Below are positions 18,100 to 62,425 of a DNA stretch of 64,000 nt, in pieces. The notes under the pieces were generated by a model. That model worked only from the letters and a program-made list of their open reading frames with translations. It did not search any database and was not told the DNA's origin. Every line of letters starts with the position of its first letter. The first letter of the stretch is position 1. Source of the stretch: Magnolia sinica. Lineage: Eukaryota; Streptophyta; Magnoliopsida; Magnoliales; Magnoliaceae. Made by a program: the position numbers and the translations under genes. Where the stretch lies: assembly GCF_029962835.1 (NCBI RefSeq), contig NC_080578.1, positions 51,267,001-51,331,000 of the forward strand. Reading direction: 5' to 3'.

Positions 18100-19814
18100 T
18101 GAAAAGGGCGAGCTTAACGGTCCTTGGGGGAGGGGGGGGGGGGGGTGAATAGGACCATGCAAAATAAAAATTAACTTGTTACAATAATAAATAAATTAGG
18201 AAATATACTCTCACTAGTATTGAAAATTTGATTCAAACTTAGTTCGTAGGACAACCTACACCCAAAACAAAGTTTAGGCAGGACAACCTTATTTCACGAA
18301 CAATTGTAAGGATCAAGATCTCAAATTGAAGAAAGATCCAAAAGAGTATTACAAGCACTCACCACATTTGCATAAATAAAATTACAACTATTCTCCACAT
18401 ATGTAAAAAGTAAACATTCATCACAAACACCAAGAATTATAATGGTTTAGTGTGTACACCAACTGTTCTCAAATAGTCACACCTACTCCACTCCCAATAA
18501 TCACAATCCATGTGATATTAACTTTCACTATAAAAAAGGTTTTCACAGGATCACCTTAAAACCTGATACAATTGTGATTTTAAAGGGCTATTACAGACAA
18601 AAACCCCACACTGAGACTTTTTAGTTATCTTAGATAAACCAACAATTGAGATTTTCTGGCTATCTCAAAGAAACCAAAATATAAAAGATAGGGATATACT
18701 TATCTTCACCTTAAAGATGTATCTCTTGATGTAGCCTGTAGAATCACTTCTCCTATAGTAGAATGTTCAATGTCCAATCATATGAATGGGGGTTTCTAAA
18801 TAGATTTTAAATCAATTCCTACTAAAGGCTACTTGCTTGAATTCCTCAGGATCTCAAAGAAGAATATCTACTCTCTTTATAAAATAAGATTCATGAAAAG
18901 GAGATCAATAAATTAAAAAAAAAAGCTATTAAAGAATTAAAAATACCATGAATTATCTTGACAATAATGAGAACTTCTCTCTCTCTCTTGATGAAGACTT
19001 TTCTTAGCTTGAATTGGTAATTTTGAATTGAGAGAAGACCTCTATTTATAAGCTAAAAGGTTGTTGCTTTGACTCGTCTAAGGTTCAATAAATTTTTAAA
19101 TTTTAAGCGCGATTAGATAAAACCGAACTACGACTGGTTGAAGGCCTTGCTTGACTGGTTGAGGGCCTTGTTTGACTAGTCGAGCATGGGATTCGATTAG
19201 TCGAGGGTGCCATATTTTTAGTTGCTAGACTTCGAATCGAGCATCCCTCGACTGGTCGAAGGTCCCTCTTCGATCGGTTTAGTAGTCTACTCAACTGGTC
19301 GAGGAAGCAACAGAAAATTCATTTTTTAAAAAATATTAAATTTAGACTAATTGAAGATTTTCTTAGACTGGTCGAGCCACAGCTTAGACTAGTCAAACCT
19401 AAGCCTAGGCTAGTCGAAGTTAAGCCTATATAAAATATAAAGACCCATATATGATTATGTTTTGAAAGGACCTAAGCCAAAGGTCTTTATAGGGTCTATT
19501 ATATCTAAAAAGACTAAACATTGAAGTAACTTGAACTTTTCAGAACTTGTTTGCCTACTTGGATCTTCAATAGAGCTTAAGGATGTAACTTGATCTTCTG
19601 CTAGAAGTGTAGTAGAACTTGAACTCAGTCAGCTTGAACTTCAGTAGATTCTGAACTATCCATCTTGATCTACTTCTTGACTTGAACTTTAGTAAAGTCT
19701 TGAACTTAGTAGATTTTGAACTTTCATAACTTGAAGTTACATCTTGAACTTTCTGTCTTGATCCACATTAGGCAGACCACTTCATAAGTTATTTTGTCTT
19801 AGCGAAATTTGACA
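18100..19814 (-). mobile_element. Copia-1 5' LTR
   Basis: On the minus strand it starts TGTCAAATTT (19814) and ends CTTTTCA (18100), 1,715 bp. Parts in order: CTTGAACT-rich degenerate repeats (19770-19560), a cluster of CGACTGGTCGAG-like words (19420-19130), TATA box TATAAATAG (19050-19042), a series of hairpins with GATTTTC/GGTTTTCAC arms (18670-18535), a long C run (18145-18121 read as G on plus) and the end next to the primer site. The same order occurs in the Copia-2 and Copia-4 LTRs. Confidence 0.85.
19131..19420 (-). promoter_or_regulatory. Word cluster in Copia-1 LTR U3
   Basis: About eleven copies of a 12-14 bp word related to the palindrome CTCGACCAGTCGAG, for example CGACTGGTTGAAGG (19131), TGACTAGTCGAGC (19173), CTCGACTGGTCGAAGG (19247) and GACTGGTCGAGCC (19366). 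The cluster ends about 80 bases upstream of the TATA box in element orientation. The position suggests an enhancer; this is inferred. Confidence 0.6.
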
Positions 19815-21922
19815 AACAAAGGTGTTCTTTATACACTCTAGGACTTATAAAGGTGCAGAGAAATTGTGCAGAAATGACCTTTAGTCATTTTTGGGCATGT
19901 CCCAAGATCAGATGGGGCCACCGTTTGGCATGCCATTAGGTTCCCTTGGTAGCCCTATGTGTGGCCTTCAAAACTTATAGGGTGTGGTCCGTTAGATGCA
20001 CACAAACGATTTTTGGCATGAGGCCCATCATGACCATTTTAAATTTCTGCACAAAAAGATCTGCACACCTATGTCGGGTCCCATTTTTAGTTCCACTCCA
20101 CGATTGTATGGTGTCCGCTTTGGCCCAGATAAAATAATATATCTCCAGTCATTAGTGTACGTTAAAAGTTCCAGGTAGTGGCCTACTCATATCTCGTACA
20201 TGGGGCCCACCACGGAGGCCAGATGATGGCCCAAAAACTTCAAATCTAGACTTGTAGTTTTACATAAATGGGCCTAATCCAACTTGGTAGCCCTTGATGG
20301 TCAACTAAACCACATCAGTCAAGATAGTTCTCCACTTTAGTGGGCTCCACTAAGCATGCACATCCCATACACAAGTAAATGAGCTCAAGCAAAAGAGTTG
20401 CCGCATAACTAGCCCACTACTTAGACAATTTCAGCATAAGTATAAGGATAATGTTCATCATGCAAAATCATTTGTGCAAGTAATGGTCAACAATCTCAAG
20501 TTAGATAATGAAAACATAAACAAGGTATACATCAAGTTAAGTCCCTTACATCTGGGCCATACAATCAAGGATAACTAGCCTATGAACTCAAAAACTAGTT
20601 AGGATCGAGCTGCACCGCATAGGCCCACTTAGTTGCCCCATTTTGTTCTCACAATAACCCACACATCCACGGCCTTGTGACAGTCCAATTAGATGATCTC
20701 ATCATGCACATACATCATGAATGGGTCCCACTTTGCTGGGCTACACAAGAGGGGCTAAGGGCCCAAGAATCACCCTAATCAGGGCTACTCATGCAACCAC
20801 TCTTGCCCTATTTGGGTGCAACCTACACACACAAATTGGTGGGCTGCACATAAGGTGGACCCCACTATCCAAATGGACAGTGCACTAAACTACATGTGTC
20901 AAGGTGGGTCCCACCTCCAAGTGGGCCCGTGGCCAAGGAATTAGCATTATGGATATAACCATGCCTGTCTCATTAGAGGATGGATGACCTGGGTGAAACA
21001 TACATCACGGTGGGCCCCACATATCATCCCACATGAGTTGGATGGCAAGCACACACCATGGTGAGGCCCAACGATGAGTGGACCCCACTCTAATACCCAT
21101 CAACATGTTAAAGGCAATAAATATCAAGCTTGCACACACGGAACCCTAGCTGTCCATGCAATGGACCAAACAATGTATCGGTGGGGTCCATGGTCAGTGG
21201 ATCTCATCAAATCTGCCTCATGGTAGCACACATGCACCCACACACCATGGGTGGACCCCACGTCTAGCAGGGACCCACAATAGCCCACAAAAAGTGGGTT
21301 TCTCTTAGTACTTCAAAAGCTAGTTCGGTTGGGACCTCTCACAAGCACAACGGCTCCACTCGTTGGTGGAACACTTGGCCACTTTCATGGCCAGCAACAT
21401 GCATACATAGAGGCCTTACACAGCGGGCCCCACTCACATGAAAGAAAATAAAGGAAGAGGAAAGGAAGGAGGGGGAAGAAAGGAGGTGATGACGTAGACT
21501 CACCTTAACGCTAAGGGAGGTGGACGGCTGACCGGACGGGGGAGCTAATCCTCTCCATTTCTTCTCTCACGTCCCTCATCTCTCTCTCTCTCTAATCTCT
21601 CATGGAGGTGGGCCGGATAGGTAAAACCAAGGAAGAAAGGGAAGAAGAAAAGGGAGGGGGCGTCCATGGTGGTGGTCTGTCTCTCTCCCTCCTCTCCCCA
21701 TTTCCTCTTTTTCTTTTTTCTTTTTTCTAATCAATGGAGGGATTTCTTAGTAGAGGAGGAAGCATGGGACCTATTCATTATGTCTTATGGGATTTTTTAA
21801 AATGAAATAATTACATTTTCAACAAAAACAAGAAGAAAATAAATGCATTTTCGAAAAAACCAATAATGACATGCATAGGGATAATTTCTAAAATGTAATA
21901 ATGGCACTTGGGACGAGGGTAA
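19815..21922. other. Unassigned GGGCCCA-rich non-coding DNA
   Basis: No gene seen. Rich in GTGGGCCCCAC-type words (for example 20205, 21010, 21240) and purine-rich runs (21440-21660), like solo LTR A but without a block I can align. Only short accidental frames occur. It may be a further degraded LTR interrupted by Athila-1, whose right continuation would be 29624-29954. Confidence 0.5.
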
Positions 21923-23372
21923 TGTTAATGGTTAAATATTACATATTGGACCCCATTTATTACTTGATTTTATGAACATGATAATGCTTAATGTTTTATT
22001 TTAATTATGTTTGTGTTGCAAGGTGAATTTAAGAGCTTAGATTGAAAAGAATGTTGAAAACATGGATTTAACACTCAAAAATCACCAAAGCAAAGAATAG
22101 ATCTTTCAAGACTAAGAATGAAGAATGCACATACTAAAGATCTAAGAAAATCAAGTCAAGAATGAAGAAAATCGGAGTTTTGAAGTGAAATTGCATAATT
22201 CTCGACCAGTCCTGGCCTCTACTCGACCAGTCTAGGCTACGCACAACTAGTCCTAGACACCGCTCAACCGGTCGAGGTTCCTCGAGTAGAACTCCAATGA
22301 GTAAAACAACTAATTTTTTTTCATTCTTGATAAGTTGAGGGTGTCCTACGATTGGTCAAGGATGGCCCACGACTGGTCGAGGACGTCCCATGACCAGTCG
22401 AGCATTACGCAATTTTTAAGCGGACTGCGTAGATTTGGGATGGTTTTCAAAAATTTCCACTTGGTGTGAAAGTGTAAGGGTTAAATCTATAAATAGGGGT
22501 CCTTGAAATATCCCTAGGCATCATCGAGGGTTTCGGGAGTGGAGCAAAAGCATAGAGAAGCTGTCACCAAGAGTTTTTCTTCCTTTTCCTTAGTTGTTTT
22601 TATGTTGTTCTTAAGAGATTTTAGTTCAATCATGTCTGTGGTTGGCTAAACCTCTTAGCTAGGGCTAAGAGGTGAAGCTTGTAGCGTAATGGGATGTTTC
22701 TATTTCTTTGATTCATGTTTATATTGAACTCTCTTTGATTTTAACTTAATTATAAGGAATACTATTAGTTTTTAATGGTTTGTTGTGACTCAAATTACAA
22801 TGGATCTGTGATAGCTTTAAGTATGTTCTTTTCATGCATTGAGATTGTGAATTTAGGAAATCTTATTGTTTACCATCATCCCTTGGGCATGGTCGGATGA
22901 TGGAATCCTCCCTAACTTTCACAATTCTCCCAGATTGGTTATGGGATTAGTAAATCCTGTTGTTTGCCTTGTTCCTGGGCAAGGTTCTATGATGGAATCA
23001 CTTCCAGTTCTCACACCTCTCATCCATTGAGAATTAGGTCAAAGGAAGTTCAAATTTGGTTTTACCGAGATATCGTCCAATTGGATAGGATGGGACTCTG
23101 ATTCTAATCGTGTGGCTTGAATCAAACATAGATCTCCCTGATCTTTACAAGTGGATCCTTGGAAACCCTAGTTTCCCACCTTTGAATTTCTTAAGTTTTT
23201 TCATTAAATCTCTCACAATTACTTTTAAATATTCCAGATTTAGGTTTTCATCTTTTTCTAATTCTTCTTTTAGTTACTTTCAGAATACGCATGACACTAG
23301 TCCCTGTGATTTTGACATCAGTCTTACCGAGATTATTACTACATCGCGGCCCTACACTTGGGGTTGTGAACA
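21923..23372 (+). mobile_element. Athila-1 5' LTR
   Basis: Starts TGTTAATGGTTAAATATT, ends GTTGTGAACA; 1,450 bp. Contains a word cluster (22201-22405), TATA box TATAAATAG (22488-22496) and a conserved end ACCGAGATTATTACTAC...CCCTACACTTGGGG shared with the 3' LTR. Confidence 0.9.
22201..22405 (+). promoter_or_regulatory. Word cluster in Athila-1 5' LTR U3
   Basis: Eight words in 205 bases: CTCGACCAGTCCTGG (22201), CTCGACCAGTCTAGG (22222), CAACTAGTCCTAG, CTCAACCGGTCGAGG (22263), TTGATAAGTTGAGGG, CGATTGGTCAAGG, CGACTGGTCGAGG (22370) and TGACCAGTCGAGC (22391). The TATA box is 83 bases further on. The same word occurs in the unrelated Copia-1 LTR. The 3' LTR copy is at 28455-28660. Confidence 0.65.
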
Positions 23373-23378
23373 AGTTTT

Positions 23379-23391
23379 TGGCGCCGTTGCT
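23379..23391 (+). other. Primer binding site, Athila-1
   Basis: TGGCGCCGTTGCT, the usual site of Athila-type elements (complementary to an Asp tRNA end in known members), a few bases after the 5' LTR end. Confidence 0.85.
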
Positions 23392-23409
23392 CGTGATTAA
23401 CAGTTGCAT

Positions 23410-23770
23410 TTTTCTGAGATTAATTAGTTTTAGAATTAGGTTAAGATCAGGGTTTTTCTTTTTTCCATTTTTTAGATTAGGGTTTGTTTTCTATTTTTTG
23501 AAACTTTCTAATTCTAGGATTTTTTTTAGAAACTAACTAACTTTCTAATTCTATGTTTAGAAACCTTCCTAATTTGATTTTAGAAACTTCCTTTCTCCTT
23601 TTTTAGAAACTTTCGATTTTCTATTTTTAGAAACTTTCCTTTCTCGTTTTTTAGAAACTAGTTTACTTTCTATTTTTATTTTTAGGAACTTTCTAATTTT
23701 AGAATTTATGTTTTTAGAAATTGACTTGTTTTGTTTTGTTTTGCAGGATTTTAATATGGAACTTCTAATT
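23410..23770 (+). repeat. T-rich leader with degenerate tandem units
   Basis: The untranslated leader repeats TTTTTAGAAACTTTC-like units about eight times between 23490 and 23715 with varying spacers (about 22-45 bp). A pyrimidine-rich run follows (23780-23840). Confidence 0.65.
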
Positions 23771-23877
23771 TGGTAACTTCTTTTCAATTCTCTCTCTCTT
23801 TCTATTTATAGATTTCTATTTCCCTTCTTTCTTTTAGGTTTTGGTTAGAATATGAAATTGAGGGCTGAGAGTGTTTC

Positions 23878-25022
23878 ATGCCCAAGTGGGTTTGTGATAA
23901 CATTCAGCATCTTTTGAGTGAAGAAGGATTGGTTGAGGGGTTATCTATCCATCACAAGATTAGACATCACTCGAGATCTTTAGAGTTAATTGAGGTTATG
24001 GCTGCAAATCAACTAGTTAATCAACTGGGAAGACAACCTCAACATAGGGTTGAGGAAGTCCAGGATGAGAATGAGGTGCATCAAGCACCCTCGCTCGTAC
24101 TTTACAAAATGATTTACAACTGGTGGGGGTGAGCACACCATCACGCATGGTTTTTACAGAGAATGCAGGACATGAATATCAAGCTGGGAGTGATCCAACT
24201 CCTTCCAAAATTCCATGGACTTAAATCTGAAAATCCATATCTACACTTAAAAGAGTTTGATGGGATAATAGACACTTTATATTTCCTAATGTGTTTGAGA
24301 ACATGATCAGACTGAAAATCTTTCCCTTCTCCTTAAAAGAAAAAGCTAAGACATGGTCGTACTCACTACATCCACGATCGATTGGTAAATGGAATAACAT
24401 GATAAGGGAGTTCATCAAGAAAATTTTCCCATACCATAAAACGAACACCCTTAGAAAGTCAATCATGAACTTTGCTCAAAAGGAAGATGAAACATTCTTC
24501 TAATGTTGGGAGTGGTTCAAGGATCTTGTCAGTTCATTCCCACAACACGGTTTTGAAATGTGGCACATAACAAATTTCTTCTATAATGGACTGACATCTT
24601 CCATGCACCGATTAGTCGAGATGATCTGCAATGGGGAATTTATGAACAAAGATGTCAATGATGTGTGGGAATATCTAGATAGACTTGCTGCAAATGCAGA
24701 ATCATGGAACACCTCCCCAAAACCCATAATTTCTAAGCCTACTCAATCAAAGGAAAGGGGCGGAATGTATATTTTAAAGGAGGAAGATGATATAAATGGT
24801 AAAGTAGCTAGTCTCACAAGGAAACTACTCGAGGCCATGGAACTTAAGAAGGTTAAGGCTAAGGAAGTTATTTGCGGTATTTGTGCTTGTAACATACATA
24901 CAACCAAAAATTATCCAATAGTACCTGCTTGTCAAGAAATTTTAAATGAGCAATCAAATGCCGTAAATAACTACCAAGGACCTTTTAGTGGACCCACCTT
25001 AAATACATATAACTACGGCTGA
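23878..25022 (+). pseudogene. Athila-1 gag
   Basis: Gag of an Athila element, broken by stops (near 24130 and 24501) and shifts. 24291-24503 and 24558-25022 carry the retrotransposon gag domain: FIKKIFPYHKTNTLRKSI, QKEDETFF, then after a stop FKDLVSSFPQHGFEMWHITN, FYNGLTSSMHRLVEMICNG and GEFMNK. A degenerate knuckle CGICACNIHTTKNYP follows near 24880. The matching region in Athila-2 is at 63713-62742. I place the start at 23878 only because it is the first ATG; the true start may be the ATG at 23998 (MAANQL, compare MAVNQP in Athila-2). Confidence 0.85.
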
Positions 25023-25645
25023 AGGAATGGACAAACTGTTACTCCTTAAGGTTTCTTCAATCAAATTCTAACCAAGAGAGACATCAAGAGGATCCGGTCT
25101 GGAAACATATTCAAAACCAAGAGCTTATCACTCAGGGTATATTGCAAACCCTTAAAGATCTTTTAAAGGCCATACAAGGGAGTGAGACAAAAAATCAATT
25201 AGGGACAAAGGGATTCTTCCAGCCCAACCTTTTTCCAATCCTAAACCGCAATATGAAATAAGTGATCCAAGCTCTTCAAATCAAATGGAGTAAGCTAAGT
25301 CTATCACCACTCTTAGGAGTGGGAAGATAATTGACAAATCTATTTCGGCAAGGGCTGAAAAGCTTAAGGACCTGGAAGAGGACAATGATGATAGACCTAG
25401 CACTGCTCCACAAGAATTGGAACCGAAACTTCAAGGCAAGCCTATTGCCCCATTCCCCCAACGGTTGGTTGCAATAAAACCTCCCTCTAACTCTTAGGAC
25501 ATTTTCGAGGTGTTGAAACATGTGAAGGTCAATATTCCTTTACTGGATGCAGTTAAACAAATACCTTAATCTGCCAAAATTTTGAAACACTTGTGTGACC
25601 AAAGGAGGGTAAAATATTTAAAAGAAAATCTTCTTAACCAAAAAA
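25023..25645 (+). pseudogene. Athila-1 gag-pro linker, decayed
   Basis: Continues gag in several frames with many stops; pieces such as a proline-rich PPSNS stretch near 25480 fit the linker region between gag and protease. No intact domain. Confidence 0.5.
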
Positions 25646-28181: not shown

Positions 28182-29623
28182 TGTTGAGGGTCAAATATTG
28201 CATATTGGACCCCATCTATTACTTGGATTTATGAACATGATAATGCTTAATGTTCTATTTTAATCATGTTTGTGTTGCAAGGTGAATTTAAGAACTTAGA
28301 TTGAAAAGGATGTTAAAAGCATAGCTTTAACGCTCAAGAATCACCAAAGCCAAGAATGGATCTTTCAAGACCAAGAATGAAGAGTGCACATACTGAAGAT
28401 CTGAGAAAATCAACTCAAGAATGAAGAAAATTGGAGTTTTGAAGTGAAATTTTGTAATCTTGACCAGTCCTAGCCTCTGTTCAACCAGTCCAGGCTACTC
28501 ACGACTAGTCCTAGATACTACTCGACCAGTCGTAGCTTGATCGGTCGATGTTCCTCGACTCGAACTCCGGTGAGTAAAACAACTAAATTTTCATCATGCT
28601 CAACCAGTCAAGGGTGTCCTACAACCGGTCGAGGATGGCTCGCGACTAGTAGAGCGTTACGCAATTTTTACGCAGACTGTGTAAATTTGAGACGGTTTTC
28701 GAAAATTTTCACTCGGTGCGAAAGTCTAAAGCCTAAAACTATAAATAGGGGTTCCTAGGGCATCCCTAAGCATCATTTAGGGGTTGGGGAGTAGAGCAAA
28801 AGCGTGGAGAAGCTGTCGTCAAGAGTTTTTCATCCTTTTCCTTAGTTGTTTTTATGTATTTCTTAAGAGATTTTAGTTTAATCATGTCTATGGTTGTCTA
28901 AACCTCTTAGCTAGGGCTAAGAGGTGAAGCTTGTAGCGTGATGGGATGTTTCTATTATTTTGATTCATGTTTATAGTGAACTCTCTTGGATTCTAGCTTG
29001 ATCATAAGGAATACTTTTAGTTTTTAATGGTTTGTTGTGACTCAAATTGCAATGGATCTGCGATAGCTTTGAGTATGTTCTTTTCATGTATTGAGATTGT
29101 GAATTTAGGAAATCTTGTTGCTCACCATTATCCCTTGGGCATGGTCGAATGATGGAATCCTCACTAACTTTTACAATTCTCCTAGATTGGTTATGGGATT
29201 CATAAATCCTATTGTTTGCTTTGTCTCCTGGGCATGGTTTTGTGATGGAATCACTTCCACTTCTAACACCTCTCAGCCATTGAGAACTAGGTCAAAGGAA
29301 GTTCAAATTTGGTTTTACTGAGATATCTTCTAATTGGATAGGATGAGACTCCGATTCCAATCGTGTGACTTGAATCAAGCATAGATCTCCATGATCTCTA
29401 CAAGTGGATCCTTGGAAACCTTTTTTTCCCATTTTTGAATTTCTTAAGTTTTTTCATTAAATCTCTCACAATTACTCTTAAATATTCTAGATTTAGATTT
29501 TTGTCTTTTTCTAATTCGTCTTCTAGGTACTTTCAGAATACGCATGAGATTAGTCCATGTGGATTCTACCTCTGTCATACCGAGATTATTACTACAGCAA
29601 CCCTACACTTGGGGTTGTGAATA
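28182..29623 (+). mobile_element. Athila-1 3' LTR
   Basis: Starts TGTTGAGGGTCAAATATTGC, ends GGGTTGTGAATA (CA end mutated to TA); 1,442 bp. Aligns along its length with the 5' LTR, with many scattered substitutions, so the insertion is old. TATA box at 28740-28748; word cluster 28455-28660. Confidence 0.9.
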
Positions 29624-29954: not shown

Positions 29955-30033
29955 ATATAACCTTAGAAAGACCTTTGTATTAGGTACTTTCAAAAATTCT
30001 CTATGTTGGGATTTTATAAGTGTTTTTGCTATT

Positions 30034-30390
30034 GAATTCGACCAGCCTAACTTCTGGTTCGACTAGCCCAACTTCAAGCCCAAGGAAAAGAACAACTTCT
30101 GTTAAAAATTTAGCCAGCCTAACTTCTGGTTTGGCTAGCCTAAGCTTGAAAATTTTCAAGCCTGAGAAAGCTTGGGTGAAATTCCAGCAATGTAATCTTT
30201 TAAAATTTACAAGAATTCAGCCAGTTGAGTGTCAAATTCATTTAGCCGAACTATGATGTTCAGTCAGCCGAATTTATCCTCGTGCCCACCAAATTTTGTA
30301 TAAACCTTATCTCGCACAATCCGTGAGCTGTTGGACCAAATCTGGTGGACTCTAGCCAGCCGAAGCCAGTCTTAGGCTAGCTGAAGTTCT
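30034..30390 (+). promoter_or_regulatory. Word cluster in Copia-2 LTR U3
   Basis: Repeated words built on the palindrome GGCTAGCC with TTCGG/CCGAA flanks: TTCGACTAGCCCAA, TTTGGCTAGCCTAA, TTTAGCCGAACT, AGTCAGCCGAATT, AGGCTAGCTGAAG and others. The TATA box follows within 15 bases. The same word family is in Copia-4 (62085-62425). Confidence 0.6.
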
Positions 30391-30912: not shown

Positions 30913-32381
30913 TGTAGACACCCACCTAAGCTAAACATCTTGAGAAGGCTAAGATAATTCGTGAACCATAATTATATCCTAAACCAAACCCTAATCCCAG
31001 CTCAAACCTAAACCAAACCTAAAACCTCGAGCCACACTTCAAACATCCAATCCATAACCTGAAACCCTAATCCAAACCATTCAACCTACATACAGCCCCC
31101 GCCTATACCCTATACCCTGATCTAAGCCCCTTTACCCAAGCCTAAGTCCATCTATCTAACCCCAAAACCCCGAAAAGGGGACTAACAGATGAACCAACAC
31201 ACCAAGTAAGCCCACACGCTTAAGCCCGACCCGAACCCATACCGGACGGTAGTCCAACTACCGTCGGTGGTAGTTTGACTATTGCCAGCAGTATTTGGAG
31301 TGCCGCCGCTCGCGGCCCATGTGTGATCTCCTGGGGACAACTGTCCCAGCGTCCGAAAGTCAACTTTCTTCAGAAATTACCCCCTTATCCGACTTTATTT
31401 ACTGTTTTACCAATTTCAAGAGCCAATGAGAGCACACCACATGACGTTTCTCTTCCCTCAACCATTCACAACTTGCCATGTCACCATTTACCCCCCTTAA
31501 ACCCAAAAATTATCACATTGCCATTGGAGAATGCTAACATTTCACAACAACTACTCTTCATTTCCAAGCTTAAGTGAGAAGGAGAGAAAGAGAAAGGGAG
31601 AGAGTGAGGGTGAGGGAGAGCTCCTGAGCCTCCAAGATCAATTTTTTCTAAACATCTCTTAGCCTCCTCCTAACTTTCTCAATCTCAAGTCTAGCCCGGA
31701 TTGGCCATGGTACAACCCATATCTTAGCCAACTCAAGTTCTAGCTAATGATCCTATTATTTTATGCAAGCATTCATCATGACATCTACTCCCTTCTCTGT
31801 CCATACACTGATAAGGGATGTATGGATTCTTAAGAAGAGAGGAGCCGTGGTGGTCCCCCCTGGACCTCCCGGATCCCACGAGTGAATAGAAAGTTGGATC
31901 TATAGAAATTCCCAGCAAACTAGTCCTATTTTCTTACCTCTTTGCATAAGCACCGTCATATCTGCCTTCTAGACACATCATTGGATGTATGCTCTGTGGC
32001 TTGTCCAAACCTCGGATCTTGCCCCATAAAAAATCCATGTGTGCACCTAGTCTTATTTCGACCACTTCATCCATCCCTTAAGATTGTTTTACCACACAAA
32101 GTAGAGACCGTACGTTTGTACGGGTAGAGAGTGTGCCTAACACCTCCCCTCTTTGTAACCGAGGTCCCTTATCTGGTTTGCAGATCAGGAGTCAATTTCA
32201 GCCAGGAGAATCTTCGAGTTTCTCCAACCATACATTTTCCGTAGGTTCTAGCCGACTACAGAATTCTGAACTCAATTGGCTAGTGACGACTCCAATATCC
32301 ACATATCTGCTTGTTAATCCCCATCTGCCTAACCATAAAATACGCCAAATTTATATAGGTGCTGATTTTTCAGTGTCTATA
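30913..32381 (+). mobile_element. Tat 5' LTR
   Basis: Starts TGTAGACACCC, ends CAGTGTCTATA (CA mutated to TA); 1,469 bp. It has two GGTAGTC-type palindromes at 31246-31286. Compared with the 3' LTR it lacks about 27 bases around 31527-31540 that hold the TATA box, and has a non-matching block near 31797-31895. Confidence 0.93.
31246..31286 (+). promoter_or_regulatory. Palindromic box pair in Tat 5' LTR
   Basis: ACGGTAGTCCAACTACCGT (31246-31264) has perfect 8-bp arms around CCA. GGTGGTAGTTTGACTATTGC follows as an imperfect second copy. The 3' LTR keeps the first box (51472-51490) with two changes, and only part of the second. Confidence 0.7.

Positions 32382-50275: not shown

Positions 50276-50277
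<2 letters not shown>

Positions 50278-50308
<31 letters not shown>
50278..50308. repeat. (AT)n microsatellite
   Basis: About fifteen AT units in the Tat 3' non-coding region. Confidence 0.97.
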
Positions 50309-50311
<3 letters not shown>

Positions 50312-51134: not shown

Positions 51135-52580
51135 TGTAGACACGTCACCCAGGCTAAACATCTTGAGAAGGATAAGACAATCTGGGAACCATGATTATAT
51201 CCTAAATCAAACCTTAATCCTATCTTAAACCTAAACCTAACCCAAAGCCCTAACCCAAACTTAAAACTTCCAATCCGCAACCTGAAACCCTAATCCAAAC
51301 CATTCAACCCACATACAACCCTCGCCTATACCCTATACCCTGATCTAAGCCCCTTTACCCAAGCCTAAGTCCATCTATCTAAACCCCAAAACCTCTAAAA
51401 AAGGGGACTAGCGGATGAACAAGCACACCAAGTAAGCCTACACGTTTGAGCCCGACCCGAACCTATATCGGACGGTAGTCCAACTACCACAGGTGGTACT
51501 TGGAGTGCCGCCACTCGTGGTCCATGTGTGATCTCTTAGGGACAGCTGTCCCAACATCCGAAAGTCAACTTTCTTCAAAAATTACCCCCCATCCAACTTT
51601 ATTTACTGTTTTACCAATTCCAAGAGCCAATGAGAGAACGCTACATGGCGTTTCTCTTCCCTTAACCATTCACAACTTGCCATGTCATCATTTACCCCTA
51701 TCAAACCCAGAAATTACCACATTACCATTGGAGAAGGCTATAAATAGCCTTCTCCTCTTCATATTTCACAACAACTACTCTTCATTTCCAAGCTTAAGTG
51801 AGAAGGAGAGAAAGAGAAAGGGAGAGAGTGAGGGTGAGGGAGAGCTCCTAAGCCTCTAAGATCAGATTTTTATAGCCATCTCTTAGACTCCTCCTAACCT
51901 TCTCAATCTCAAGTCTAGCCCGGATTGGCCATGGTGCAACCCATATCTTAGCATACTCAAGTTCTAGCCAAAGATCTTATTATTTTATGTAAGCATTTAT
52001 CATGACATCTACTCCCTTCTCAACCCCCCTGCTCCTTTAGATTTCTAGTGAACGTATGCTCTATGAGTTGCCATATACCGGACCCTGTCACATCAGAAAT
52101 TCCTAACAAAGTAGTCATGTTTTCTTACATCTTTGCATAAGCACCATCGTATCTGCCTTCTACACACATCATTGGATGTATGCTCTATGGCTTGCCAAAA
52201 CCTCAGATCTTGCTGCATCAAAAAATCCATGTGTGCACCTAGTCCTATTTCGACCACATCATCTATCCCTTAAGATTGCTTTACCACACAAAGTAGAGAC
52301 CGTACGTTTGTACAGGCAGAGAGGGTGCCTAACACCTTCCCTCTTTATAATCAAGCACCCTTATCCGAAATCTCAGTTCGCAGATCAGGAGTCAATTCAG
52401 GTAAGAGAATCTTCAGATTTCTCCAACCATACATTTTCCGTAGGTTTTAGCCGACTGCGGAATTCTAAACTCAATTGGCTAGTGGCAACTCCAATATCCA
52501 TAAATCCACTTGTTAATCCCCATCTGCCAAACCATAAAATACGCCAAATTTACCTAGGCACCAATTTTTCAGTGTCTACA
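51135..52580 (+). mobile_element. Tat 3' LTR
   Basis: Starts TGTAGACACG, ends CAGTGTCTACA; 1,446 bp; followed by the GATAG duplication. Matches the 5' LTR along its length except for a TATA-containing segment present only here (51731-51760) and a block at about 52020-52105 that differs. First palindromic box at 51472-51490. Confidence 0.93.
51731..51754 (+). promoter_or_regulatory. TATA box inside a perfect palindrome, Tat 3' LTR
   Basis: Arm GAGAAGGCTAT (51731-51741), spacer AA, then its exact reverse complement (51744-51754); the centre reads TATAAATA. It is missing from the 5' LTR. The palindrome could extrude as a cruciform. Confidence 0.85.
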
Positions 52581-52585
52581 GATAG

Positions 52586-53031
52586 CCCGTGAAAATCATA
52601 AGGAACTGTATCAAGTTGTTAAGGTGACCTTGTGAAAACCTTATTATAGTGAAAGCTAAAATTACGACGGTAGCAATTTTGGGAGTGGAGTAGGTGTGAT
52701 TGTTTTAAGCACCGAACCACTATAAATCCTTGGGTTGTGTGGTGAATGCTCTATTCTTTTTGGTGATTGGATGTTATTTCTTGTGGTGAATCTTATAATC
52801 CTTTTATATTCTCTTGCTAGTTTAAAAGATTAATTTTAATGACATTCGTGAAGTAAGGTTGTCTTGCCGAATATTTTAGGTGAAGGTTATCCTACGAATT
52901 ATTTAGAATTAAGGTTTCAATATTAAAGTGATTGAGATTTTTTGTAATTTTTACATATTCCGCATTTATTTCGATTATTTGGCATTATCCTATTCATACC
53001 CCCTCTAGGACATCGCTAGCTCTCCATTTCA
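52586..53031 (+). mobile_element. Copia-2 5' LTR, right part
   Basis: Resumes after the Tat insertion with CCCGTGAAAATCAT, a hairpin AAGGT...ACCTT (52621-52642), and ends CATCGCTAGCTCTCCATTTCA at 53031 like Copia-4. With the left part it makes about 1.4 kb of LTR. Confidence 0.88.
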
Positions 53032-53033
53032 AG

Positions 53034-53045
53034 TGGTATTAGAGC
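53034..53045 (+). other. Primer binding site, Copia-2
   Basis: TGGTATTAGAGC, one base off the initiator-Met tRNA site, two bases after the LTR end. Confidence 0.85.
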
Positions 53046-53093
53046 AAGTTGATCTTTTTTTTTTTTTTTTAGATTTACCTCCAAAGCTACAAT

Positions 53094-54613: not shown

Positions 54614-54619
54614 TCAACA

Positions 54620-55061
54620 CATTTACCTGATTCATCTTTTGAGAGTTTAAGAGTCATACTCATTAGAGTATCAAAATTCTTACCATTTTCAAAGCCAAAC
54701 ATTTTATAAGGTTCAATGCATATTTGTCTGTGAGATGAACATACCATTTTCAAGTTATTTGGCTTGTAATCCAAGGAAATAGTTTAGCTCGTCGACCATA
54801 CTCATTTCAAACTTGGATTTCATTAGATCTGCAAACTCAGTAGATAAGTTAGCTCATGTAGATCCATAGATCATATCGTCAACATAGATTTGAACAATTA
54901 GGATATGATCATTATATGTCTTGACGAATAGAATTTTGTCAACACTACTCATAACAAAATTATGACTAAGTAAGAATTTAGTCAACTTTTCATACCACGC
55001 TCTGGGAGCTTGTTTTAAATCATAAAGAGTCTTTTTAAGACGGTAAACATGATCAAAAAGT
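54620..55061 (-). pseudogene. Copia RT fragment, opposite orientation to Copia-2
   Basis: Minus strand: DHVYRLKKTLYDLKQAPRAW, YEKLTKFLLSHNFVMSSVDK, the catalytic VQIYVDDMIYGST near 54900-54870, then SKFEMSMVDELNYF-type sequence and KYALNLIK. It matches Copia-1 RT (8200-7790). Its N-terminal side meets the Athila-2 3' LTR at about 55062, so Athila-2 probably inserted into this RT; the rest of the Copia would be beyond the right window edge. Confidence 0.88.
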
Positions 55062-56734
55062 TTGAGAACTTCATGTGTAGGGTCGCGATGTAGTAATAAT
55101 CTTGGTAAGACCATGGTCAAATTCATAGGGACTAATCTTGTGTGTCTATTATGAAAGTATTTAGAATCAAAACTAGCAAAAGTTCTAACCTAAATTAGGA
55201 AAGTAGGGAGTAATTGTGAGGAGATGAATTTAGAAACTTAAGAATTTAAAGGTGGGAACTAGGCTTTCTAGTGATCCACTTCCAGCTATTAGGATGCTTC
55301 CTTAGTTGATTCAAGGCACTTAATTAGAATTAGAGTCCCATACTATCTAATTGGAAGATATTCAATAAACTCATATCTGAACTTCCATTGACCTAGTTCT
55401 CAACGAATGAGAGTTGTGAAGATTGGAAGTGATTGCATCACCTAACCATGCCCAAGAGATTATGGTAGATAATAAGATATACCGATCCAACAACCAACAT
55501 GGGAGAATTGTGAAGAATAGAAGGGATCCATCACTCATCCATGCATAAGGGATGATGGAGAATAATAGGATTTCTATTTTAACAAACTCCAAACACAAAA
55601 AGAAAGTACTTCGAGCTATTGCAGATCTATTCCAATTTAAGTCACAATAAACCATTAAACACTAAAAATATTCCTTAGATATCAAACTAGAATCAAAGGA
55701 GTTTAACAATAACAAGAATCAAATAAGAAAAATATCTCAATCATGCTACAAGCTTCACTTCTTAGCCCTAGCTAAGGGATCTAGCTAACCATTGACATGA
55801 TTGGATTAAAAACCCTAGAAGAAAGCATTAAAAACTAAAGAGAAGGGAAGAAGAACTCTTGGGAAGTGGCTCTGCCCTCTTGCTCTACTTCTCCAAACCC
55901 TAGATCTCCTAAAAAGTTCCTAAAAACCCTTATTTATAAGCAAAGTTCCGTAAAATTGCAAAAACGGATCTAATTTTTACACAGATTGTGTAATGCCTTC
56001 GATGTCATTGAACACCCTTTAATGTCATCGAAGGGGTTTGAATCCAAAAGTCACATCGTTTCTTTTTTCGTGATGTGTAAGTCTCTGTGCCATCGAACCG
56101 TCCTTCGATGTCATTGAGCAAAGCTTCAATGTCATCAAAAAGGTCTTTGAGTCATCGAGAATGTGTCCAAAACAGTCCAATAACTTACTTCAATTTCTTT
56201 AATAATTTCAATGCCATCAAAAAGGTCTTCGAGTCTTTAATGTCATCCAGTGCCTTCCTTCAAGTCATCGTGCAGTCTTCGATGTCATTAAGTACCTTCC
56301 TTCGAGTCATTGAACATGTCTTCGATTGATCGAGAAACGCACGAAATATGTCCAGCAACCAACTCAATTTTCTCTCATAAATTTGATGTCATTGACCATT
56401 GTTCGATTTCATTGTACTGATCTTTAATGCCATTGAATAGTTCTTGATGACACAGTCTTTGCAATTTCCGCACTTGTTCTTTCAACTTCCTTCCTTCTCC
56501 ACTTAGTTTTCTTAGATCTTGGAGTCTTGAAATCTTCAATCTTAGTCTTCAAATATCCATTCTTTGGTTTGGTGACTTTTGAGCACTAAATCCATGCTTT
56601 TAGCATTCTTTTCAATCCAAGCCCTAAAATTCACATTGCAACACAAACACATGGAAAGTATACCATTAAATAATATTATGTTTGTAAAACCAAGAGATAA
56701 ATGGGGGATAATATGCAATATTTGACCCTCAACA
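55062..56734 (-). mobile_element. Athila-2 3' LTR
   Basis: On the minus strand starts TGTTGAGGGTCAAATATTGC (56734), as in Athila-1, and runs to CATCGCGACCCTACAC near 55075 and a diverged end at about 55062. U3 has a TTCGATGTCATTGAA word cluster (56445-55995); TATA box TATAAATA at 55938-55931. Confidence 0.85.
55995..56445 (-). promoter_or_regulatory. Word cluster in Athila-2 LTR U3
   Basis: Some fifteen words built on the near-palindrome TTCGATG-N-CATCGAA, for example TTCGATGTCATTGAAC, AATGTCATCGAAGG, TTCGAGTCATCG and TTCAATGTCATC. The cluster ends about 55 bases before the TATA box in element orientation. The word differs from that of Athila-1. Confidence 0.6.
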
Positions 56735-57870
56735 CAACCCCCAACTAGCATTTTACTAGTCCCGAGCAAAATATGCAAAAATTAATCTTCAACCTCAAGT
56801 TCAAAACCATTTTTAGAAAACAATCTTTTGTGCAATCAAGTATGGATGAGTATGGACAAGACAAGAAGGTGAGATTTTGAAATTCCTAGAGTTGAATCAC
56901 ATAGGTAACCAATCAAGTAATTTTTTTGTTAATCAAATCAAAGTACAAGTCTATTTGCCATGTTTTTTTAATGTGCTCAGTGAAAATCAACTTACTTTTT
57001 GTACGACTACTGTCGTTTCATAATGTCAGCCATGCTCATCACTTCAAGGTTCGTTTGAACTCAAGTACTGATTCCAAACTCATCCCCTTCTCATTTTTTT
57101 TCTAGTTTTTTATTTTTTTTATCGACGGTCAATTTTTTAATCATTCTTTATTTTTGCATTCTTTTCTAGATTTTTCATTCTTTTCATTCTTTTGAATGAC
57201 CTCTTTGTTGATCCCTTTTTTAAACTGGTTCTTTTCTTCTTTTAAGGTGGATAAAATTCTCCAGACTCGATTCTCACCATCTATCAATGATTCTCATACT
57301 AACAATCAGAACTTCTAGCATATCTTACAGAAGACAAATTGAATGTGTCACATGATCTAGATTAACATAATATTCAAACTTTCTCTAAAATAACTGCGCA
57401 CAAGAACTTAGGTGGTAGATTACTTAGAAGATTAGACTTTAGCAATTCAAGATTCTATCTTTATCTTATCATACTCAACACATTCTTAAATACGCAATTT
57501 CTTATTTTCCAAATAGATTACAACTTAAAACCTTGAAAATTTTTCAAAATTTTTGCTCAAAACTGAGAAAACACTGATTAGGTTACCTAATCCCCCACAC
57601 CCCCACAAAAATTCTACATTGTCCTCAATGTACAAGAAATAAACAAGTAATGCAAATAAGGCAATGAAAAGAAAGGGAATGGTGATGGAAAGATAGTACC
57701 TAGAGGAAGGAAAGTTAAAGCTTTTCCACAGATCTCAGCATAAAATGGGTTAGTACAAAACAAAACTCAACGAAGTTTAAGCAAACTATCCTAAAATAGC
57801 ATAAAGTAAACTATCCTAGTCCTATGAAAGCGATAAACTGACATATACCTCCATCAAACTAGGAGATCAA
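56735..57870 (-). other. Athila-2 3' non-coding region and polypurine tract
   Basis: No gene seen. Contains the ATTGAGGACAATGTAGAA block and a G-rich run (minus strand, about 57625-57575) shared with Athila-1, and the tract GTTGGGGGTTG touching the LTR at 56735-56745. Confidence 0.75.
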
Positions 57871-59002
57871 TCCTGGTAACTAGGATCACTCAAAGGTATG
57901 GACATGTCCTCTTAATCAAAGTTTTCAACAAATAACTTTAACTGATGTCCATTTACTTTAAAAGCATTGCCATTGCTTGAATTCTCTATCTCAACAGCCC
58001 CATGAGGATAGACATTTGTAACAGTAAAAGTGTCGGTCCAACAAGATTGGAGCTTTCCCGGAAAGAGATGTAACCGAGAATTATACAAAAGGACTTTTTG
58101 GCCTTACAAGAATGATTTACGAAGGATGTTCTTATCATGGAACACCTTCATCCTGTCATTGTAAATTCTTGAGTTCTCGTATGCATCATTCCGGATCTCC
58201 TCAAGTTCATTCAATTGTAGCTTATACAGCGACCAAACGTTGTCCAAATCAAAGTTCAAATTCTTTATAGCCCAACAAGCCCTATGTTCCAATTCCATAG
58301 GTAAGTGGCAAGCTTTTCCATAGACAAGTCTAAAGGGAGACATTCCAATGGGAGTTTTAAAGGTTGTACGGTAAGCCCATAAGGCATTAGTCAAGCAGAT
58401 TGACTAATCATTACGGTCAGGGTTAACCGTCTTTTCCAGGATGTGTTTGATCTCCCTATTAGAAATCTCAACTTGCCTGCTTGTCTCTAGGTGGTATGGA
58501 GTGCTTACCTTGTGAGAGATGCCATATTTCTTCATTAAGTTTGGGAATGACCTATTACAAAAATATGAGCCTCCATCACTAATGATAGCCCGAGGTGTTC
58601 CGAACCGGGAAATGATGTTCTCTTTTAAGAATTTAATGACCGTCTGATGGTCATTATTCTGTCATGGGATCGCTTCGACCCATTTAGTGACATAGTCCAT
58701 GGCTAATAGAATGTATAAATTTCCCTAAGATTAGGGGAATGGTCCCATGAAATCGATGCCCTAGTAATTAAATGCTTCAATTACTAGAATGGGGTTTAAA
58801 TGCATCATATTTCTATGGGACAATGCTCCCAACTTTTGACAACGCTCACAAGCCTTGTAAAATTATGAGTGTCCTTGAACATAGTGGGCCAATAAAAATC
58901 ACACTGTAGAATTTTGGCCGTGGTCTTCTTAGTAGAAAAGCGACCACCACAGGCCTGAGAATGATAGAAGGAGATAACACTCTGGTGTTCATTGTCTGGC
59001 AC
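57870..59002 (-). pseudogene. Athila-2 integrase
   Basis: Zinc region from 59002: EHQSVISFYHSQACGGRFST then KILQCDFYWPTMFKD and a damaged CxxC near 58840. Catalytic core in broken frames: GIDFMGPFP (58760), [14 protein letters not shown] (about 58590) and [18 protein letters not shown] (58490-58440), giving D, D and E. 58394-58104 is open: [40 protein letters not shown]. The C-terminal part continues to about 57870. Several stops. Confidence 0.88.
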
Positions 59003-59189
59003 ACATCTGCTTAAAATCTGATCTGGGTAATATTTAAATAAGTATGGATCATCCCAGAAGAATTTGCGTACCTCGACAAAAAATTTCTTCTTATCTTGTG
59101 TAGTCTAATGTGTTGGTATGAAACCTGTGGCAAAATAATTAGCAATATCAGCAAACCAAGGTGAGGGGGAGACTTTAACCAATTGTTCA

Positions 59190-60660
59190 TCGGGGAACAT
59201 GTTGTTGATTGGTGCCATCTTAAGGGAATCAGAGAGATCAAGGTGGGAAAGATGGTCAGCCGCTATGTTCTTTACTTCATTTTTATCTTTCATTTCCAAA
59301 TCAAATTCTTGGAGTAGAAAGATCCATCTTATCAAGCGGGGCTTAGCATCATTCTTAAAAAGAAGATACTTGAGTGCCGCATGATCGGTGTAGATAATGA
59401 TCTTGGATCCAATCAAGTAGGATCTAAATTTGTCCAAAGCGAATACTGCGGCCAAGAGTTCCTTTTCCATAATAGAGAAGTTCACTTGGGTAGGATTTAG
59501 AGTTCTTCTTGCGTAATAAATAACGTATGACTTTTTTCCTTTTCTCTAGCCTAAAACTGCCCCAAGAGCATATTTAGACGCGTCGCATATAAGTTCAAGA
59601 GGAAGGCTCCAATCGGGTGGCTACATGATAGGTGTAGTGGTTAACATGCCCTTGAGTCAGTAAAAGCTTCTTGGCATTGCTCAGTTTACTTGTATGGTGC
59701 ATCCTTTTGAAGTAGATTGCATAAAGGATGAGAGATGTGGCTGAAGTCCTTTATGAATCTCTTGTAAAACCCAATGTGTCCTAAGAAGGATCGCACGTCT
59801 CATATGCTTTTGGGTGGAGGTAGGGTAGAGATAAGATCAATTTTTGCTTTATCTACCTCTATTCCCTTGGACAAAATGATATATCTAAGAACAAGTCCCT
59901 TACGAACTATGAAATGACACTTCTCCCAATTGAGTACCACATTCTTTTCTTCACATGTTTTTAGCACACATTTATGATTTCCTAAGCAATCACTGGAGGA
60001 TGGACCAAAGACCGAGAAGTCATCCATGAAGACCTCTAGATATTGCCCTACCATGTCAGAAAAATACTCATCATACATCGCTGAAAGGTGGAGAGGGCAT
60101 TACATAGTCTGAATGGCATCATTCGGTAAGCAAAGGTGCCAAAAGGATATGTGAACGTGGCCTTTTCTTGGTCTTCATAGGCTATCTAGATCTGATTGTA
60201 GCCCAAATATCTGTAAAGGAAATAGTAATAGGAATAACCAGCTAGCCTTTCTAAAATTTGATCGATGAAGGGCAAAGGGAAGTGGTCCTTCCTCCTGACG
60301 GTATTCTACTTCCTGTATTCAATGCACACTCTCCAACCAGTAGTAACTCTAGTTGGCGTGAGTTCATTATTGGCATTGGCCAAGATGGTGATTCTGGACT
60401 TCTTGGGAACCACCTGAGTTGGACTCACCCATTGGCTATCTGATATAGGGTATATGATACCCACATCCAATAGCTTAAGAACCTCGGACTTAATCACTTC
60501 CTTCATGTTTGGATTTAATCTGTATTGTGGTTGCTGAGAGGTCTTCGCATTATCCTCTAGATAAATGTAACAAATACAAATCGAAGGGTCAATTCCCTTG
60601 AGGTCCATAACCGACCATCTAAGGGCTCCCTTATACTCAAAGAGAGTAGATGAGCATACT
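59190..60660 (-). pseudogene. Athila-2 reverse transcriptase and RNase H
   Basis: RT starts near 60608: YRLNPNMKEVIKSEVLKLLD, GIIYPISDSQWVSPTQVVPK, TPTRVTTGWRVCIEYRK. After shifts the catalytic LEVFMDDFSVFG is near 60030-60000 (FMDD in place of YVDD), then NWEKCHFIVRKGLVLRYII and VRSFLGHIGFYKRFIKDFS. RNase H at 59485-59230: [34 protein letters not shown] and AADHLSHLD. Stops and shifts throughout. Confidence 0.9.
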
Positions 60661-60960
60661 CTCTTGTTCTTGCTTAAGGTGGGAAGAACTCACCACCAGG
60701 TATGTCTCATCTTGACCTAAATAGGCATATTTTAAATCAGAGGGCAAAGGTTTTAGGTCAAGTTTCGGTGCCTTGAGGTTAGATGGTAGAGGCACTACAT
60801 CAGTTTGTGGTAATTCTTCAAATTGTGGCCTCCATCAGTTAACTTCATGTACCAGCACAGTATCAAGTATGGCCCTCATCTCCCTCATCATGTCATCGTC
60901 CAAATCATGGGTGTGGGCCAGGCATGTCTTTAGAGGGTTAGAGGATAAGGTCAAGAGTGT
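60661..60960 (-). pseudogene. Athila-2 protease-RT linker, truncated
   Basis: TLLTLSSNPLKTCLAHTHDL, then WRPQFEELPQTDVVPLPSNL and KLDLKPLPSDLKYAYLGQDE. It matches Athila-1 at 26165-26430. The protease domain itself is absent: the region between gag (62742) and here is missing, replaced by the Copia-4 fragment. Confidence 0.85.
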
Positions 60961-61570
60961 TGTATCTTTCATTAATGGATTTGAGGAAAATCCTCATCCT
61001 GGCTTTCCAATATGAATAATTATAGCCATCAAAGGGAGGTGGCCTTGTAATAGATAGGCTTTCAAAATTTGACATCTTGTAGCTTTGGATCTAGCTCAAG
61101 GAGGTAAATAAAAATAAAAATAAAAAGAGCAACCCGCTCTGATACAACTTGAAATGGAGAGCTAGCGATGTCCTTAGGAGAGGGAGGGGGGATTGGATAA
61201 TGCCAATCAATTGAAATAAATGTAAAAAATAAAAACATTACAAAAATCTCAATCGCTTGAGTATTAAAACCTTATTCTAAATAATTCGTAAGACAACCTT
61301 ATTTCATGAATGTCTTTAAAATCAAACTTTCAAACTAGCAATAGTAGATAAAAGGATTATAACATTCACCACTGGAATGAAATAATAAATTACATCCAAT
61401 CACCAAAAATAATATATAAAGCATTCACCACAGAGCACAAGGAGTTACAGTGGTTCAGTGCTTAAAAACAACCACACCCACTCTACTCCCAAAATTACTT
61501 CCCTCGTAATTTTAGCTTTCGATATAAAAAGGTTTTCACATGGTCAGCTTAATAACATGGTACAGTTCCT

Positions 61571-61667
61571 TGTGATTTTCACTGGCTATCACATTAAAAA
61601 CCCAACTGAGATTTTCAGAGGCTATCTCAGACAAAACCTCAACTAAGATTTTCAAAGGATATCTCAG
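61571..61667 (-). repeat. Serial hairpins in Copia-4 LTR
   Basis: Three inverted repeats at 61571-61593 (TGTGAT/ATCACA), 61606-61630 (CTGAGAT/ATCTCAG) and 61643-61667 (CTAAGAT/ATCTCAG, imperfect), with a weaker fourth near 61530. Same order and loop type as in Copia-2. Confidence 0.7.
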
Positions 61668-62084
61668 AAAAACTTAAAAAGAGTTTCAAAAGGTATACTT
61701 ATCTTCAAATTTATAAGACGTTGGAGAAGCTTGTAGCAGAAGGACTTCTTTCTTGAATGTAGATGGCGCAGTCTTCAATCTGATAGAAAGAGTCTAGGGT
61801 TATATAGATTTTAATTATGAAAAACACAAATGCAACTTAATTCAATTCTCTTAAATCTCAAAGAGGAGTATAGTTTACTTTCTTAGATTAAGACTTAAAA
61901 GATCTGAGAATAAAGGTAATTGAATAAGCTATAAAAATAAATTATAAATACCAACAAAATAGCTTGCCGAGGACTTGAGCTTCTTTCTCTCTTATAAAAG
62001 AATTATGATAATAGTTATGTGTAATTCAAAATGAGAGAAAGACTCAATTTATAGGCAAAGAAGTTAGAACTTCGGTTAGACCGA

Positions 62085-62425
62085 GATAGGCTTTGATTAG
62101 CCCAAGTTCACCAGATTCAGTTCAACAGATTTCAAATTGCGCAAGATAAGAATTATCCAAAATTTGATAGGGTCAAGGTCAAGTTCAGCTGGCCGAACAT
62201 CATAATTCAACTGGCTAAATTTTCCCTTTAGCTGGCCGAATTCTCACGAATTCCAAAAGTTGGTGTTACTAGAATTTTAGACGAACTTTCTCAGGTTGGG
62301 CTAGCCTAGCTAAAACTTGGGCTAGCCAAATTTTTAAGAAAAGTTGTTATTTGCTCAGGCTTGATGTTAGGTTGGCCGAGGAAGTTTAGGATGGCCGAAC
62401 CAACAGTCTGGCTGGCCGAATTCCA
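62085..62425 (-). promoter_or_regulatory. Word cluster in Copia-4 LTR U3
   Basis: About ten words on the core GGCTAGCC/GGCTGGCCGAA, for example AGCTGGCCGAAT, TTGGGCTAGCCAAA and TCTGGCTGGCCGAA. The TATA box lies about 35 bases beyond in element orientation. Confidence 0.6.

Follow-up and report, generated by a model that had tools for sequence, protein, structure and literature searches.

Palindromic word arrays upstream of TATA in copia and Athila long terminal repeats of Magnolia sinica: a probable promoter cassette common to two superfamilies

A 64,000-nucleotide stretch of the Magnolia sinica genome (contig NC_080578.1, positions 51,267,001 to 51,331,000; here called the window) contains retrotransposons of the copia and Athila types whose long terminal repeats (LTRs) bear clusters of palindromic words just upstream of the TATA box. 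An earlier note on this DNA had pointed out these clusters, and had assigned one word, word A (CTCGAC-N2-GTCGAG), both to the element Copia-1 and to the two LTRs of Athila-1. The question raised by the locus is what such clusters are, and how elements of two superfamilies come to have the same word in the same place. The answer proposed here, judged probable but by no means secure, is that the arrays are cis-regulatory sequences of the U3 region, serving a predicted homodimeric DNA-binding protein of the host, and that array, spacer and core promoter together form a cassette that has been exchanged between elements.

Counts of exact words in the whole genome (1.84 Gb in 127 contigs, also the basis of the pair counts given below) confirm the clusters and extend them beyond the window. 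Compared with a control in which the pattern is reversed, which has equal composition and is palindromic too, word A was found 17,834 times against 46, word B 723 times against 14, word C (TTCGATG-N-CATCGAA) 12,311 times against 1, and word D (TTCGACNNGTCGAA), a relative of A, 11,974 times against 51. Within arrays the words are dyad-symmetric and 14-15 bp long. Each LTR had been described as having a word cluster of its own, with A and B as different words; A and B prove to be variants of a single frame, YTCGRC-YR-GYCGAR, which D also shares. The central two bases are constrained, being pyrimidine-purine in 50/50 A, 48/50 B and 38/50 D places among those listed, and the two halves of the frame covary: asymmetric words with mixed ends (CTCGACNNGTCGAA) number 7,668, where independent halves would give about 18,280.

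In the window itself, where up to 3 mismatches were allowed, the assignment of words to elements is borne out. Word A has 25 hits, 18 of them in the three named clusters of Copia-1 (19150-19418: 7) and the two Athila-1 LTRs (22201-22402: 5; 28480-28654: 6), with 4 at 6856-7002 and 3 elsewhere. Word B has 20, of which 15 lie in Copia-2 (30037-30385: 8) and Copia-4 (62184-62420: 7), and 2 of the remaining 5 fall in Copia-1; 10 of the 14 hits of word C lie in Athila-2 (55998-56437). None of the words A, B and C occurs there in exact form, 1 mismatch being the best, so the earlier reader must have arrived at ideal words from decayed ones. The four A-like words at 6856-7002 (2-3 mismatches) make up an extra decayed cluster, 66 bp from a TATA-like hexamer.

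The carriers of these arrays can be sorted by homology downstream of TATA, which was used for the family labels of 52 arrays in place of single-link clustering of 700-bp flanks, where 38 of 39 arrays merged. Group I comprises 30 arrays (word A in 27, C in 3), Group II 14 (B in 4, D in 7, A in 3, the window's Copia-1 among the last), and Group III consists of Athila-1 (A), Athila-2 (C) and locus L030 (C); one pair and three singles remain. Group I is Ty1/copia. Its gag domain Retrotran_gag_2 is found in L017 and L018, and RVT_2 lies between the two LTRs, in the orientation of the element, in L006 (3.5e-31), L015 (2e-44) and L022 (1.5e-28), in L006 and L022 with integrase pieces upstream at scores below the cut-offs; L011, whose RVT_2 is on the strand opposite its array, was left out as evidence. 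Six of seven Group I LTR pairs span 3.5-5.7 kb, the seventh being 9.1 kb with gypsy domains inside, and the LTRs measure 0.51-0.86 kb in all seven. The Sirevirus polypurine tract AGGGGGAG is present in 0/7 of these Group I pairs within 30 bases upstream of the 3' LTR, with boundaries set by blastn. Athila-2 has RT_RNaseH, Integrase_H2C2 and a marginal RVT_1 (28.4 bits, cut-off 29.6) in gypsy order on the minus strand (60099-58808). Athila-1 gave no gypsy match in five open reading frame (ORF) pieces, a sixth (24261-24500) lying outside the scan, and a PDB search with one of its ORFs gave no match; it was assigned through homology of its LTR and internal region to Athila-2. The clade name Athila is the earlier reader's label. 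Given copia domains in Group I and gypsy domains in Athila-2, each of the words A and C is used by copia as well as by Athila elements. Two Group I loci, L005 and L025, have an A array and a C array, respectively, on downstream sequence that is 84% identical over 189 bp.

The words recur at a pitch of about 21 bp. Cores of word A starting 16-46 bp apart form 7,248 pairs genome-wide against 1 for the control, and those of word C 3,920 against 0. Among the 50 pairs listed for each word, A-A distances are 20-22 bp in 32 cases, 41-43 bp in 14, often with a decayed word in between, and elsewhere in 4; C-C distances are 20-22 bp in 31, 40-43 bp in 13 and elsewhere in 6, the commonest C-C step being 20 bp. 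Neighbour distances of 19-23 bp account for 78% of 125 in Group I (27 arrays), 61% of 148 in Group II-type arrays (16) and 60% of 47 in C arrays (6). A search for similar palindromes that takes no account of the words, run on word-selected loci at lags of 16-60, gave for 14-mers 52 pairs at 21, 21 at 42 and at most 5 at any other lag, and for 15-mers 11 at 20, 4 at 21, 3 at 22, 6 at 42 and at most 1 elsewhere. The window alone is weak evidence, since a word-agnostic autocorrelation has 8 runs at lag 21, 7 reaching into word clusters, and 0-7 runs at other lags of 12-39; an unmasked palindrome scan of it was dominated by AT repeats. Gaps between sub-arrays keep helical phase, with a resultant of 0.88 in Group I (n=28, one group) and 0.68 in C arrays (n=19). 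Pairwise identity per column, taken over 23 Group I arrays, is 0.48-1.0 (mostly 0.7-1.0) in the two proximal words and 0.24-0.55 in the linkers, one word-edge G (0.75-0.91) excepted. Conserved proximal words on mostly unconserved linkers are unlike a plain tandem repeat, and fit sites on one face of the helix two turns apart. From distal to proximal in Group II, the left half-site passes from 0.95 to 0.85 and the right from 0.76 to 0.92, so that the outward half-site is the better one; this trend is not seen in Group I.

Words A and C are kept apart within arrays. In the whole genome only 2 pairs of an A and a C core have starts no more than 46 bp apart, at 28 and 46 bp, so that an array apparently changes as a whole. 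Word B was found with A or D in one array in 8 pairs, 7 of them at 21-22 bp, and these words are therefore able to mix.

The position relative to TATA was assessed in the window and loci L005-L049, on those arrays that have 4 or more words, the best of them with no more than 1 mismatch. A TATAAA or TATATA lies within about 125 bp of one array end in 52/58 arrays, as against 33% in shuffled flanks, which bears out the earlier note. Because the loci were selected for their words and often represent copies of a single family, the arrays do not count as independent of one another. Four arrays without a word of at most 1 mismatch had been dropped before this count, three being the window clusters at 6856, 28480 and 30037. 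The Copia-4 cluster at 62184 is among the 6 misses, with a TATA-like site 136 bp away, and its decayed words, read by eye, run on toward TATA to about 62071. Between array end and TATA there are 17 to 118 bp, a short stretch as had been noted, but not always within the proposed 100 bases or so. The distance is fixed per family: 85-87 bp in 26/27 Group I word-A arrays, and 17 bp in 11/14 Group II arrays, the other 3 having 36-38 bp, about one word short. The observed-to-expected ratio of CpG is 1.55 in words, 0.67 between words, 0.45 upstream and 0.57 downstream; it is 1.08 in the spacer from array to TATA, the LTRs being otherwise CpG-poor outside words. Reading by eye also brought up a further inverted motif, placed between the array and TATA in Athila-1 (TTACGCA...TGCGTAG, 22404-22432), with similar ones in several copia Group I spacers and a counterpart, TTACACAATCTGTGTAA, in Athila-2 (minus strand, 55977-55993).

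How Athila-1 and copia come to share word A can be approached through the sequence around the array. The LTRs of Athila-1 and Athila-2 align on both flanks, at 79% over 255 bp and 75% over 904 bp, but not in the block that begins some 30 bp ahead of the array and ends at TATA, a difference that gives good support to the turnover of words between them that had been suggested. This flank alignment, together with the pitch, the common A/D/B frame and the exclusion of A by C, goes beyond what had been noted before. The non-matching block of Athila-1 aligns instead with several copia Group I loci. Against 30 Group I spacers, the 85-bp spacers of Athila-1 reach a best z of 8.4 (5' LTR) and 9.3 (3' LTR); against the Athila-2 spacer they have 47% identity (z 1.5-1.6) and 55% (z 4.5), and against that of L030 48% (z 2.2) and 56% (z 5.7), respectively. 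Masking of the words leaves Group I arrays as the top matches to the 5' cassette, with z up to 13.9; one Group II array reaches 5.4. In a further control with masked words 27/27 Group I word-A arrays score above all reversed-sequence controls (maximum 30) with both Athila-1 LTRs, at medians of 42 (5') and 54 (3'), whereas Athila-2 and L030 score 28-30 with the 5' LTR, not above controls. The earlier statement that the LTRs of the two superfamilies are not homologous therefore fails for this block. Copia-1, of Group II, has no blastn alignment to Athila-1, and in the masked test it lies above controls with the 5' LTR of Athila-1 and below them with the 3' LTR. Of the two origins that had been considered for the sharing of word A, transfer is thus supported for Athila-1 and Group I, and convergence on a common reader may apply to Copia-1.

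A sliding comparison, made with 7 Group I word-A arrays picked by hand out of the 27, points mainly to copia as far as TATA, with one 40-column step in favour of Athila-2. Around TATA, where the sequences all resemble one another, it is near level, and beyond about TATA+35 Athila-2 is clearly the better match. A query spanning the junction matched at 83% or more in 40/40 scored places (of 2,741 first-look candidates), including the window's two copies, and the Athila-1 mosaic is therefore an established family. With 38 of these matches outside the window, a one-off copia insertion was rejected as the source of its word A; the derivation from a copia LTR fragment, against which the earlier note had weighed its own reading, takes the form of a shared cassette in an established family and not of a chance insertion. 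On these comparisons the Athila-1 cassette resembles copia Group I most and Athila-2 to some extent, and it is likely that, besides any convergence, Athila-1 and Group I share a cassette. A further apparent mosaic LTR is that of L027 (528-1262), with an Athila-like upstream end (77%), a word-C array and a spacer like that of copia Group I.

The simplest account of these features, as far as sequence can suggest one, would be a symmetric protein that reads both half-sites alike and binds in a row beside TATA. Such a sequence-specific protein of the host would occupy the palindromes along one face of the helix, the pitch of about 21 bp corresponding to two turns and the sites sitting a short, family-fixed distance upstream of TATA; once bound, it would drive or control transcription from the LTR. 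Array, spacer and core promoter would act as a unit, replaced wholesale at the same place in the LTR (A versus C), and one version of this unit would be common to Athila-1 and a Ty1/copia group. The words, their pitch, the dyad covariation, the purity of A and C, the place relative to TATA and the mosaic similarity are seen in the sequence itself; protein binding, promoter function, the host origin of the factor and the route and direction of any exchange are what we infer. For the route, the breakpoint near the expected U3/R junction suggests strand transfer between co-packaged RNAs: strong-stop DNA might pass from one to the other, with a later return switch. For LTR elements of plants, template switching is a mechanism already put forward (PMC1950507, available text). 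It is tempting, though decidedly speculative, to go further and regard these as exchangeable, phase-locked cassettes of dimer sites that superfamilies swap by U3/R strand transfer, with whole-array changes of word tracking or escaping a fast-changing host factor, a plant counterpart of the race between zinc-finger proteins and retroviruses. The arrays could provide a handle on the host factors that switch plant retrotransposons on or off, since a symmetric site of fixed pitch in tens of thousands of copies would make an easy bait. If cassettes are exchanged, the evolution of LTR promoters crosses superfamily lines, and families would then not be independent in studies of silencing and stress response.

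Several observations weigh against this proposal. No known plant factor was matched to the words, though no motif library was consulted for one. The covariation of word halves is partly confounded by family, A being mostly Group I and D mostly Group II, and selection for hairpins would yield it too. Helical phasing of the sub-array gaps is weak in Group II (n=58, resultant 0.40 at 10.5 bp), and the two outer word registers of the 23 Group I arrays have identities of only 0.23-0.58, because many rows have no word there. Spacer identity is modest, at 44-68% over the 30 Group I spacers, with a median z of about 3.5 (5') and 5.4 (3') and a lowest value of -0.8. With words masked, the Athila-1 3' LTR also somewhat resembles Athila-2 and L030 (42-44, above every control, against the Group I median of 54), and some Group II arrays beat the controls, 6/14 with the 5' LTR and 1/14 with the 3' LTR; it may be that an old block is common to Athila-1, Athila-2, L030 and copia. 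To these must be added the folding of the arrays. The palindromes might act as RNA structure in the transcribed 3' U3, feeding small-RNA silencing, a role proposed for maize Sirevirus palindromes (Bousios 2016, as reported by citing papers, which also place hotspots of small interfering RNA on such palindromes). The arrays fold far better than full shuffles (mean z -5.2, n=50), and when words are kept and linkers shuffled 13/50 still lie below -2, chiefly from Group II: four copia arrays of word D (L038, L041, L042 and L044) at -3.7 to -4.9, the B arrays L032, L034 and L037, L048, L027, Athila-1 and three of Group I. For Group II, then, the hairpin explanation may hold. The mean of the linker-shuffled test is only -1.1 (n=50), so that structure comes mostly from the words alone, and a hairpin needs no single repeated word, no 21-bp pitch and no fixed distance to TATA; as a general explanation it seems rather improbable.

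The remaining explanations each account for a part of the pattern. Words that were sites for a methylation-removing protein of the element itself, as for VANC of the VANDAL transposons, would form element-specific arrays of short motifs changing together between relatives, as PMC5735166 describes in its available text; but word A is used by copia and Athila alike, and the words are symmetric where VANC21 motifs are arrayed in one orientation, which makes such a role very unlikely. There is equally little to recommend a neutral minisatellite, in which 21-bp units were duplicated and decayed and palindromy is incidental. Slippage could indeed give a fixed 21-bp unit, but the linkers diverge and the words persist despite their CpG content, a decayed word often lies inside the listed pairs at 41-43 bp, and the position of the array is fixed relative to TATA. 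In wheat, RLG_Quinta has a 162-bp inverted-repeat motif, and a nucleosome-placing sequence of that kind would share with the arrays its inverted symmetry, its place in the LTR ahead of TATA and its presence in two superfamilies (PMC11302176, available text); the pitch of identical words is finer than this would require, and the identity of the word would be irrelevant, so that this too appears highly improbable.

The general arrangement is already known in Sireviruses, and the statement that no description of it existed must be withdrawn. As far as the available text of PMC2829016 (Bousios 2010) goes, each Sirevirus element has 8-32 palindromic RM boxes, which cluster upstream of TATA within the LTR and, in carriers of env, are found in the linker too; the boxes are CpG-rich, vary in word between families, have been proposed to be regulatory, and are called specific to Sireviruses, being absent from that paper's set of classic copia elements. 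Multiple palindromic boxes upstream of TATA are what the Magnolia arrays have in common with them. A CGG-CCG core occurs in 12/13 RM boxes tabulated there (Tnd-1 is the exception), whereas words A, C and D have CGA..TCG and only B has CGG..CCG. The carriers here are classic-sized copia elements and Athila, and Group I copia are smaller than the Sirevirus averages of about 10.5 kb per element and about 1.3 kb per LTR, and differ also in the polypurine tract noted above. Regular pitch, word purity and exchange of cassettes were not met for RM boxes in the same text. In maize Sireviruses a palindrome-rich cis-region of the LTR is regulatory, fast evolving and a small-RNA hotspot, according to papers citing Bousios 2016 (Genome Res); the palindrome-rich LTR region is a likeness, the consensus CACCGGACNNNGTCCGGTG, recorded in copia and also in Helitrons in what is available of PMC10760457, a difference. 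Tnt1 and Retrolyc1 of Solanaceae have a U3 that differs between subfamilies on a conserved remainder, evidence of modular evolution (PMC1838419, available text); this modularity resembles that seen here but is confined to one copia superfamily, and the term 'palindrom' has 0 occurrences in the main text. The QuinCent motif of RLG_Quinta, proposed to have come by replacement from the copia family RLC_Gisela (PMC11302176, as available), is similarly an LTR segment upstream of TATA common to a gypsy and a copia family, but is a 162-bp nucleosome-related motif with no word array. Target arrays of VANC, clustered short motifs turning over in concert between relatives (PMC5735166, as available), belong by contrast to DNA transposons and consist of a non-palindromic motif for an element-encoded binding protein. 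A 21-bp pitch, word purity or an array in Athila was met in none of the titles and abstract openings covered, in which subscription papers are thinly represented; as far as that coverage goes, what would be new here is the classic copia and Athila carriers, the pitch, the purity and the cassette mosaic.

Table 1. Arrays, LTRs and cassettes in the window (positions are those of the window)
Feature	Position	Strand	Remarks
Copia-1 (Group II copia) array, YTCGACYRGTCGAR-like words	19068..19418	-	last word 17 bp from TATAAATAGAGG, minus strand 19039-19050
Athila-1 5' LTR	21923..23370	+	86% to 28182-29621
Athila-1 5' LTR word-A array	22201..22402	+	starts from TATA side 202, 181, 160, 140 / 77, 56, 35, 14; those at 160, 77 and 56 decayed, read by eye
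Spacer from last word to TATA, Athila-1 5' LTR	22403..22487	+	85 bp; up to 68% identity to copia Group I spacers
Athila-1 5' putative promoter cassette (array, spacer, core promoter), copia Group I-like	22201..22522	+	right breakpoint approximate, between TATA and about TATA+35
Athila-1 3' LTR, matching cassette	28458..28774	+	decayed words 28480-28654; TATA 28740
Copia-2 word-B array	30037..30385	+	8 words, four pairs at 21-22 bp; TATA 30403
Athila-2 word-C array	55998..56437	-	10 words, at most 3 mismatches; TATA 59 bp off, about 55930-55938, minus strand
Athila-2 LTR	55054..56740	-	aligns to Athila-1 LTR, array-spacer block excepted
Copia-4 word-B array	62184..62420	-	7 words; TATA about 62046-62054

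Two further features of the window may be recorded. At 31334-31368 and 51539-51573, both copies of a repeated segment have two different palindromes, GGGACARCTGTCCC and GAAAGTCAACTTTC, whose centres are separated by exactly 21 bp and which are possibly another pair of words. In the LTR adjoining the Copia-4 array, a tract at 62469-62680 is periodic at 12 bp, with a lag-12 identity of up to 0.81.

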